From NCBI GenBank assembly GCA_003215895.1, contig QCJR01000003.1, forward strand, positions 1-64,000: a stretch of DNA of 64,000 nt, read 5' to 3'. Positions 31,870 through 34,900 of this stretch are shown piece by piece (position 1 is the stretch's first letter; every line of letters begins with the position of its first letter). Position numbers and translations under genes: made by a program. The notes under the pieces were generated by a model. It did not search any database, was not told where the DNA came from, and saw nothing but the letters and a program-made list of their open reading frames with translations. The DNA is from Prochlorococcus sp. AG-409-D14. GTDB lineage: Bacteria > Cyanobacteriota > Cyanobacteriia > PCC-6307 > Cyanobiaceae.

Positions 31870-33588
31870 TTATTTTTTATTTAATTTTTTCTTCTTCCGC
31901 TGTTTTTCTCGATTAGCCAACCTCTTTCTTTCTCTTTCAGCCAATTGAATTTCTTTTTCTTTTTTTTCTTCTTCTTCCTTTTTTTTCTCTGTATAATATT
32001 TGTAATCACCTTGATATTTAATTAATTGACCATCTTTTAATTCAACAATTTTATTTGCGACTTTTGAAATAAAGTATCTATCATGAGAAACTATTAATGC
32101 AGTGCCATTATAATTAAATAATGCCTGCTCTAGCATTTCCTTTGAAGGTATATCTAAATGGTTTGTCGGTTCATCGAGAATAAGCAAGTTGGATGGCTTA
32201 ATAATCATTAAAGCCAAAGCAAGTCTAGCTTTCTCTCCTCCACTTATCTGACTGACCTGCTTAAAAACTGAATCATTAGTTAAACCAAAGTTACCTAATA
32301 GAGATCGGACTTCTGTTTGGGTCCAATTTGGTACAGATTGAGAAATTGTCTCTATTACGGTTTTTTCTAATGCTAAGGCTTCTGCCTGATTTTGTTCAAA
32401 GTAACTAGGAATAATATTATATTTACCTATCATAATAGATCCTTCATCAGGTTCTTCTAAACCCATAATTAGTCGCAGCAAAGTAGATTTCCCAGAACCA
32501 TTAGGTCCTAAAAATGCGATTCTTTCGCCTGGTTCAATCTCCAAAAAGGCTCCTAGAAATAAAATATTTTCTTCATAGCTATGCGTTAAATCCTTAATGC
32601 TTAGTATATCCTTACCAGACCTAGGTGCATCCATAAATTTAAAAGTAGGACCTTTAAGAGTATTCTCCGGAGCTTCTATTTTTTCAACTTTATCTAATAA
32701 CTTCTCTCTGCTTTTAGCTTGTGTACTTCGCGTAGCACTTGCTCGAAATCTATCTATATAAGCCTTTTGAACTTGCATATCTTTCTGTTGTTTCTCATAT
32801 GCAACTCTTGTTGATTCCAATTCAAAATCTCTCTGTTTGATATAGGATGTATAATTTCCAAGATAACTTTTAGATTGACCACGTTCTGTATTAACAATTC
32901 TTGTACATATTTTATCTAGAAAAGATCTATCATGGCTAACAATTACCATGGAAACTTTCTGATTAAGTAAATAGTTTTCTAGCCATTCTATAGTTTCTAA
33001 ATCTAAATGGTTAGTTGGTTCATCCAATAACAATAAATCTGGACTTTGCAAGAGAATTTTCCCTAAGGCTATTCTCATCTGCCAACCACCAGAAAAGTCT
33101 CCAACTAATCTGTCTCCATCATTTTGGTTAAAACCAATAGTGGGTAATAACTTTTCAACTTTTGACTCTAAATCGTATCCATTTATTGATTCAAATTTGC
33201 CTTGAGTAACACTTAATTCCTTAATTAATGAATCCAGATAATCTAAATCTCTAGAGGCTAATTCAGATTCCATATTTTCTTGAATTAATTTTTGACTTTT
33301 AAGTAAGTCGGATGCTTCTTTAAATGCCTCAAACAACTCTTCTCTGACAGTTCTTGAAAGATCAACATCAAATTCCTGTTTTAAATATGCAATAGCTGGA
33401 TCCCCTTCAATAATCAAAGATCCATCCGTTGCCTCTTCTAATCCAGCAATAATTTTTAATTGTGTTGATTTTCCTGCTCCATTCACTCCAACCAGACCAA
33501 TTCTCTCTCCGTTCCTTATTTCCCAACTGACATCTTTTAAGACTTCACCAGTAGGATAGATCTTACTAATCTTTTCAAGTCGCAACAC
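31870..33588 (-). CDS. ABC-F family ATPase
   Basis: Two NBDs (GVNGAGKST, GPNGSGKST), two LLLLDEPTNHLD/LLILDEPTNHLD, inter-domain linker, no TM; Lys/Glu-rich C-tail. Confidence 0.94.
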   Translation of the reverse strand: MLRLEKISKIYPTGEVLKDVSWEIRNGERIGLVGVNGAGKSTQLKIIAGLEEATDGSLIIEGDPAIAYLKQEFDVDLSRTVREELFEAFKEASDLLKSQKLIQENMESELASRDLDYLDSLIKELSVTQGKFESINGYDLESKVEKLLPTIGFNQNDGDRLVGDFSGGWQMRIALGKILLQSPDLLLLDEPTNHLDLETIEWLENYLLNQKVSMVIVSHDRSFLDKICTRIVNTERGQSKSYLGNYTSYIKQRDFELESTRVAYEKQQKDMQVQKAYIDRFRASATRSTQAKSREKLLDKVEKIEAPENTLKGPTFKFMDAPRSGKDILSIKDLTHSYEENILFLGAFLEIEPGERIAFLGPNGSGKSTLLRLIMGLEEPDEGSIMIGKYNIIPSYFEQNQAEALALEKTVIETISQSVPNWTQTEVRSLLGNFGLTNDSVFKQVSQISGGEKARLALALMIIKPSNLLILDEPTNHLDIPSKEMLEQALFNYNGTALIVSHDRYFISKVANKIVELKDGQLIKYQGDYKYYTEKKKEEEEKKEKEIQLAERERKRLANREKQRKKKKLNKK

Positions 33589-33673: not shown

Positions 33674-33838
33674 ATGTTAAGACTAGAACAAATTGCTGCT
33701 TTAGTACTTGCCGCAGCTCTTGCAATTCCAAGTTATTGGTTCTTTTGGACGATGGCAGGTGGAGGGGGCTACGACAGGAGAGGAATTAAAGAAAATGGTC
33801 AAGAAGCATTAAAAATCCCCTCTTCATTCAAAAATTAA
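33674..33838 (+). CDS. Small hypothetical membrane protein (54 aa)
   Basis: MLRLEQIAALVLAAALAIPSYWFFWTMAGGGGYDRRGIKENGQEALKIPSSFKN; single TM. Not in the supplied ORF track. Confidence 0.65.
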   Translation: MLRLEQIAALVLAAALAIPSYWFFWTMAGGGGYDRRGIKENGQEALKIPSSFKN

Positions 33839-34069
33839 TCACAAACCACCTCTAGCCTTCATTAGCCATTGCTTAGTATCTAAATCATCAATATTAGACA
33901 AATATTGTTTCACCTCTTCAGACGTAACAGGCAAATTCATTTCAATCCCAAATGCACATATTGATTGCATCGCACCTTTTGGATTTTGTAGTGCTTGTCG
34001 AAAAAGATCTTGTTTTTTCTTAGGATCTGCATTTATCAGCTTATAAAGCTCTTCAGCATTTCCACTCAT
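33839..34069 (-). CDS. Nif11-leader-like protein ending in ARGGL
   Basis: MSGNAEELYKLINADPKKKQDLFRQALQNPKGAMQSICAFGIEMNLPVTSEEVKQYLSNIDDLDTKQWLMKARGGL. Confidence 0.65.
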   Translation of the reverse strand: MSGNAEELYKLINADPKKKQDLFRQALQNPKGAMQSICAFGIEMNLPVTSEEVKQYLSNIDDLDTKQWLMKARGGL

Positions 34070-34102: not shown

Positions 34103-34459
34103 TTATGCAGCTTTTGTCTCGAAATCGGTAGATTCATTGCACATATCTAAATCACTTTCCTTTAAACCCAAAGCAGAGGCATCCTTCATGCTTCTAGCAT
34201 CCATACACAGGACTTTACGCAGTTGAGCGAAGTTTGCCGCATGAGAAGATCTTCCTTCTTTGCTAGCCCCATATTCCGCTCTTTGCAAAACATGGTGCAA
34301 ATGAGTCAATAAATAAGAACTCACTACAGCAGAAATCAGAACATCTCCATTCTTGCCATTACTTCGACTCTTCCTTCTTTGTCGTTTTATAGTTCCTCTC
34401 TCTGCAACAACATTTGCAGAAAGAGGTTTAGATGTTTTCGGAAGGGATGGCTTGGACAT
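34103..34459 (-). CDS. Hypothetical protein with basic N-terminus
   Basis: Intact 118-aa ORF; TIKRQRRKSRSNGK basic segment; no family recognised. Confidence 0.7.
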   Translation of the reverse strand: MSKPSLPKTSKPLSANVVAERGTIKRQRRKSRSNGKNGDVLISAVVSSYLLTHLHHVLQRAEYGASKEGRSSHAANFAQLRKVLCMDARSMKDASALGLKESDLDMCNESTDFETKAA

Positions 34460-34597: not shown

Positions 34598-34900
34598 ATG
34601 GCTACTCGTCAAAACTCATCTAACGGGAAGCAAAAGTCACCTCGGATCCAAGTTGTCCTACCAGAAGATTTATGTGAAAGATTGTCAGAATTAGCGGAAA
34701 CAGAATCTAGAACTGTGAGCAATATGGCCAAAGTTTTAATTCAAGAAGGAATTAAAAATCACGAATTAAAAGAAAGTTCAACATCTAAAGAATTAGAAAC
34801 AAAAACAACTAAAACACAAAATTTCATCAATGCTTTAGAAAAGCAAAAAACACAAAGATTAAAAGGTATTCCAAAAAGATTAAAGTTTAGAAGAAATTAA
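34598..34900 (+). CDS. Ribbon-helix-helix (CopG/Arc-like) protein
   Basis: SPRIQVVLPEDLCERLSELAETESRTVSNMAKVLIQEGI. Confidence 0.8.
   Translation: MATRQNSSNGKQKSPRIQVVLPEDLCERLSELAETESRTVSNMAKVLIQEGIKNHELKESSTSKELETKTTKTQNFINALEKQKTQRLKGIPKRLKFRRN

Follow-up and report, generated by a model that had tools for sequence, protein, structure and literature searches.

The stretch of DNA analyzed here (64,000 nucleotides, positions 1 to 64,000 of contig QCJR01000003.1 of Prochlorococcus sp. AG-409-D14; hereafter, the window) carries a minus-strand ORF at 33839-34069 that starts with an ATG at 34069 and ends with a TGA at 33841-33839. The ORF encodes a protein of 76 amino acids, P0001, with the sequence MSGNAEELYKLINADPKKKQDLFRQALQNPKGAMQSICAFGIEMNLPVTSEEVKQYLSNIDDLDTKQWLMKARGGL. 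The C terminus is WLMKARGGL, followed directly by the TGA, and no core peptide lies downstream, as the frame beyond the stop codon reads only LIFE and a second stop. The original prediction, which had described a Nif11-leader-like protein with one residue between Gly-Gly and the stop codon and no core past the TGA, was accurate on this point. In relatives of P0001, read-through of the stop codon gives short or unconserved sequence, and nothing conserved was found downstream in that frame. A core reached by read-through was ruled out on these grounds.

The genes around P0001 are conserved (Table 1). Most genera share the gene order anmK, ribbon-helix-helix (RHH) protein, 118-aa protein, P0001, convergent 54-aa protein, and ABC-F ATPase, the names anmK and ABC-F being our own reading of the sequences. 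The 118-aa protein, which received no Pfam, NCBIfam, or PHROG assignment, is a neighbor of P0001 in most but not all genera, and it is possible that the two genes form an operon in this genus. The 118-aa and 54-aa proteins keep their order across most of the Cyanobiaceae genera examined. Beside P0001 in genus g10 (L051 and L065), the RHH and 118-aa genes are absent, and genus g45 (L179, L180, and L182) retains the RHH, 118-aa, 54-aa, and ABC-F genes but has a DUF2811 ORF where P0001 is missing. Because these loci separate the neighbors from P0001, none of them is an obligatory partner, and the neighborhood was set aside as a guide to a functional partner. Furthermore, since genus g45 lost the gene cleanly from a locus that is otherwise in place, P0001 is not strictly essential and is dispensable at least in that genus.

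Table 1. Positions of P0001, its parts, and its neighbors in the window
Feature	Position	Strand	Basis
P0001, 76-aa core-less Nif11-type protein, ATG to TGA	33839..34069	-	ORF and orthologues
Nif11-like helical region, residues 1-59 (first four predicted helices)	33893..34069	-	hhalign to Nif11 set; AlphaFold2 model
Invariant C-terminal motif W-hydrophobic-x-K-A-R-G-G-L, residues 68-76	33842..33868	-	Orthologue alignment; last residues disordered in model
Stop codon TGA right after Leu76; same position in all members, any of the three stop codons	33839..33841	-	Orthologue codons
Convergent 54-aa membrane-type small protein; stop abuts P0001 stop; conserved neighbor	33674..33838	+	ORF list, locus comparison
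118-aa conserved protein, 33 bp upstream of P0001, same strand	34103..34459	-	ORF list, locus comparison
Ribbon-helix-helix (CopG-like, RHH_5) protein; conserved neighbor	34598..34900	+	Domain match, locus comparison
ABC-F type ATPase, named from sequence; conserved neighbor; marker for empty g45 locus	31870..33588	-	Locus comparison

Conservation of the gene and of its C-terminal tail

Matches to the P0001 family were found in 229 of the 251 Cyanobiaceae genomes searched, a count that includes a few matches other than full orthologues (the leader-type paralogues of G120 and, in G184, a contig-end fragment ending in KARGGL). Among genomes at least 90% complete, 164 of 167 carry an orthologue, in nearly all cases as a single match. 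Two of the three exceptions belong to genus g45; the third is G021 (90% complete), in which the locus was probably not assembled, since the neighboring ABC-F orthologue is missing as well. Among 386 genomes sampled from the whole phylum, full-length strong matches were confined to the Cyanobiaceae, and the named relatives in GTDB contigs were all Prochlorococcus. Phages and viral contigs gave no match either, and a phage-borne or mobile gene was rejected for this reason.

Pairwise dN/dS values of P0001 within the genus were 0.05 to 0.14 by the NG86 method and 0.04 to 0.06 by the YN00 method. Because of these values and the conservation across the Cyanobiaceae, the ORF lies far beyond chance, and the gene is under purifying selection. 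The original prediction had offered, as one option, a precursor that lost its core. Read as decay in this genome, that option fails: nearly universal orthologues, low dN/dS, and a fixed end point rule out a broken or truncated precursor.

The 61 distinct orthologues collected first all end in GGL and, more fully, in W-[LIV]-x-KARGGL. The KARGGL end is also kept by the orthologues of early-branching genera, which are more divergent, at only about 40% identity, and the conservation of the GGL terminus, which had been proposed as a check, was thereby confirmed. At the amino-acid level, W68 and K71 to L76 are 100% conserved. The codons behind the tail vary: all six Arg codons, all six Leu codons, all four Gly codons, and all four Ala codons are in use, and the stop codons of the family comprise 36 TGA, 16 TAA, and 16 TAG. 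Because residues 71 to 76 are constant while synonymous and stop codons change, selection on the tail acts on the protein and its exact end and not on the DNA.

Two other reasons for a constant tail were considered and rejected. Overlap with the convergent gene does not hold the tail in place, because the distance to that gene differs between genera and synonymous codons are free; an RNA terminator was excluded by the same codon freedom, and a terminator-like site was not found. Searching seven genomes for ARGGL followed by a stop codon returned the P0001 orthologue one time per genome and few sites besides; the one of these that was inspected, from G141, falls within a different coding region. 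A description of a KARGGL family was not found in the literature.

The AlphaFold2 model of P0001, which is of only moderate confidence (mean pLDDT 77.7), predicts five helices (residues 3-14, 16-28, 30-43, 50-59, and 63-72) and gives residues 74-76 a pLDDT below 50. A C terminus that is predicted to be disordered and yet is invariant suggests a linear motif that may fold on binding. Foldseek searches against the PDB and viral models returned no significant match, which is uninformative for a small helical protein. The only solved relatives were PDB 9zn4 and a designed repeat protein, both weak matches.

Relation to the Nif11 domain and to Gly-Gly leaders

Proteins with a Nif11 domain are commonly annotated as precursors of RiPPs. 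P0001 itself matched neither the Pfam Nif11 model nor any NCBIfam model, and its family stays below the curated cut-offs of both PF07862 (23.8 bits) and TIGR03798 in NCBIfam (32.3 bits): weak Nif11 matches were obtained for 13 of the 28 aligned members, the best at 20.7 and 22.5 bits. In a profile-profile comparison by hhalign with the Nif11 set collected here, the family reached a probability of 90.4% and a score of 37.5, colinear over about residues 1-59; with divergent members added, the score was 41.8 and the probability up to 93.7. Among the controls, the highest scores were 16.9 for 150 column-shuffled alignments and 17.0 for ten unrelated families of the P0001 locus, and the reversed alignment scored 14.1. 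On these profile comparisons, we take the P0001 family to be a true remote homologue of Nif11 with a colinear helical architecture, placed outside curated membership. The likeness to Nif11 in the original prediction thus stood as remote homology, and the PF07862 search proposed there as a check came out negative for P0001.

The family profile also matched multicopy ORFs in G120, G141, and G156 that are of the type MATLEQFKQIRSSVSPEIETELYGLLIQDLDAAVQRMIEIGNENDVSFTADEVRSYLREMDAEDEFDDIELDEATLAAVSGG and then have a short, often Cys-containing core. These MATLEQF-type leaders were compared with P0001 in both directions. First, hhalign between the two gave a probability of 97.4% and a score of 62.2, against a maximum of 19.3 for shuffled alignments. 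Second, a profile built from the leaders matched P0001 in the window genome at E 2.3e-6, and in most of the Cyanobiaceae genomes searched the P0001 orthologue was its only match. Third, in a tree of 62 rows and few columns, with no outgroup root, the P0001 family (FAM) was monophyletic (99/96) and branched together with the MATLEQF-type leaders (PREC; 99/96), apart from canonical Nif11 leaders. Collectively, these results showed that, by sequence, the MATLEQF-type Gly-Gly leaders are the nearest relatives of P0001. From their anatomy only, these leaders are presumed to be RiPP precursors.

The precursors of this type (MATLEQF...ELDEATLAAVSGG, then a short core that often contains Cys) were seen at L146, L147, L157, and L160-L168 in G141, G156, and G120 and also at G029:C45:2314-2556. 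They are scattered, often in island-like surroundings, and one adjoins an integrase. Five of the leader ORFs were compared with Pfam and NCBIfam, and no model was matched at its cut-off. Near the precursors in G120 are a Cupin_8/JmjC-like protein and a GNAT acetyltransferase (L191:2847-4085 and L191:675-1778), which are possible tailoring enzymes. In G186, about ten weak matches to the leader profile were found in ORFs of 80-257 aa (e.g., C1:2111403-2111633), possibly a long-leader variant.

RiPP machinery and the function of P0001

RiPP precursors are expected to share their genome with a modification enzyme and a Gly-Gly exporter, and most genomes that carry P0001 do not follow this pattern for LanM and C39. 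A LanM dehydratase domain was found in 5 of the 45 carrier genomes searched and in none of the other 40. The C39 domain gave 50 matches in these 45 genomes. About 12 genomes have PCAT-type proteins, which are about 700-800 aa long and match from profile position 2-6 onward; most of the other matches are transporters of about 980-1,180 aa in which the match starts past the catalytic Cys region, and 16 genomes have no C39 match whatever. Of the RiPP machinery, the search covered LanM and C39. In the window genome, which is 55% complete as available, so that claims of absence rest on complete relatives, no LanM match was found. Its only C39-like match is a transporter of about 986 aa on another contig which, read beside the PCAT of G056, appears to be without the peptidase-site Cys and His. 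The earlier remark that no LanM or C39 protease is visible in the window was correct. Because most carriers are without LanM and 16 of 45 are without a C39 match, P0001 is independent of LanM and of Gly-Gly (C39) exporters. The original prediction had named universal conservation of the GGL-ending form in cyanobacteria without any RiPP genes as the result that would speak against its RiPP readings, and that form was indeed found in every orthologue first collected and in complete genomes without LanM or without C39.

P0001 is probably a housekeeping small protein of the Cyanobiaceae, in which a stand-alone Nif11-type helical domain is joined to the fixed tail W-hydrophobic-x-K-A-R-G-G-L and which acts as an adaptor or regulator through docking of that tail. 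The tail, with its free carboxylate, would serve as a ligand that docks on a conserved partner in the cell, because it is predicted to be disordered yet is the most conserved part of the protein and its end point is never shifted by a residue in either direction. The helical domain may provide a second binding face, and the protein would stay in the cell. Among the options of the original prediction, a gene that is nearly universal, single copy, and independent of LanM and C39 agrees best with the third, a housekeeping protein with a Nif11 fold.

A broader and more tentative proposal, which we consider possible but not favored, is that the domain of this universal protein was recruited as the leader of a lineage-specific class of RiPP precursors, that donor and leader now coexist, and that a conserved protein of picocyanobacteria recognizes the donor by its W..KARGGL tail as a docking signal. 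Shared ancestry of the Gly-Gly-leader class and the P0001 domain belongs to the housekeeping reading that we favor. Such recruitment would be the simplest route to these leaders, because the stand-alone protein is universal whereas the precursors have a patchy distribution, although the tree behind this direction, stand-alone to leader or the reverse, is unrooted. The reverse course is that a Gly-Gly RiPP precursor lost its core at the base of the Cyanobiaceae and its leader was kept for another function. The sister group of the family, consisting of Gly-Gly leaders with Cys-containing cores, would be consistent with such an ancient loss, as would the tail, which resembles double-Gly leaders in its Gly-Gly and in having a hydrophobic residue at position -7. 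However, position -12 is Asp and not hydrophobic, W, K, and R have been added, and recruitment in the opposite direction needs fewer losses when precursors occur in few genomes; we regard ancient core loss as rather unlikely.

The original prediction had also proposed an adaptor or decoy for RiPP machinery, that is, a protein that binds a leader-recognizing enzyme or exporter, possibly as an inhibitor, and is not itself a substrate. Nif11-type domains of leaders bind ProcM-type enzymes (PMC10783134), and the domain of P0001 is related to such leaders. As a general function, this role is strongly weakened and now improbable, as LanM is missing from 40 of 45 carriers, C39 matches are missing from 16, and the window genome, as far as assembled, has an active form of neither. 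It is still harder to credit a secreted or processed peptide, cut or exported via Gly-Gly to leave Leu or a C-terminal fragment as a signal: Gly-Gly does lie near the end and cyanobacteria have many type I exporters, but just one residue follows Gly-Gly, most carriers are without an active-looking C39, and a signal peptide is not apparent in P0001. The least probable reading, a ubiquitin/Pup-type conjugation tag, would account for a C-terminal Gly-Gly preceded by Arg, but Leu always follows Gly-Gly, the predicted domain is helical and Nif11-type and not beta-grasp, and the conserved neighborhood has no activating enzyme.

The housekeeping role that we favor for P0001 has several consequences. 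First, the family would be a conserved, core-less, non-precursor use of the Nif11 domain in organisms that rank among the most abundant phototrophs, and it is invisible to current profiles. Second, the invariant tail could serve directly as bait for a picocyanobacterial partner. Third, as a warning for annotation, Gly-Gly near a C terminus is no evidence of a leader. What stands out most is that one domain occurs both in a universal stand-alone protein and in a patchily distributed class of Gly-Gly leaders. Haft et al. (2010) proposed that Nif11 proteins, and nitrile hydratase, are housekeeping proteins retailored into RiPP precursors (PMC2887384), and the P0001 family offers a concrete test case for leaders recruited in this way.

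Comparison with known systems

Compared to Nif11 proteins of PF07862/TIGR03798, the P0001 family has the same helix order (L..I..DP, helix, I...G, P/F.[VI][TS].EE[VL]; four helices in Nif11) and extra residues between helices 2 and 3 (LFRQALQ[ND]P.GA). The C termini differ: Nif11-like leader precursors have an ELSDEELE..AGG cleavage motif and a core, whereas the P0001 family has neither and ends in W..KARGGL and a stop (TKQWLxKARGGL-stop). PDB 9zn4, a "Nif11 domain-containing protein" of 77 aa, aligns with residues 4-64 of the family profile at a weak E of 0.045, and its aligned part is without the KARGGL tail.

Prochlorosin and synechococsin precursors (ProcA and SyncA) have a distantly homologous helical Gly-Gly leader (hhalign 29-32 against the P0001 family). 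They are multicopy proteins with MSEEQL... leaders and a variable Cys/Ser/Thr core, are present in few genomes, and are modified by a LanM encoded in the genome, whereas P0001 is single copy and core-less. A conserved Nif11 group F, which starts with MALDQL and ends in GEYH/N, was described in a survey of marine Synechococcus and Prochlorococcus (PMC10783134), and it matches a 71-aa Nif11 paralogue seen here. Like P0001, these core 71-aa proteins ending in PGEY[N/H] are stand-alone, core-less, and conserved in many genera of the family; in contrast to P0001, they are clear Nif11 members (54-64 bits) with another C terminus, and the two are distant (hhalign 22-26). The 71-aa proteins (L099-L124, in many Cyanobiaceae genera) exceed the TIGR03798 "RiPP precursor" cut-off while having neither Gly-Gly nor a variable core, and such names given to them automatically are probably misleading.

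Closest to P0001 by sequence, with reciprocal profile matches, are the apparently unclassified MATLEQF-type leaders of G120, G141, G156, and G029. These end in EFDD[IF]ELD..ALAA[IV][SA]GG before their short, often Cys-containing core and are multicopy and patchy, whereas P0001 is without a core.
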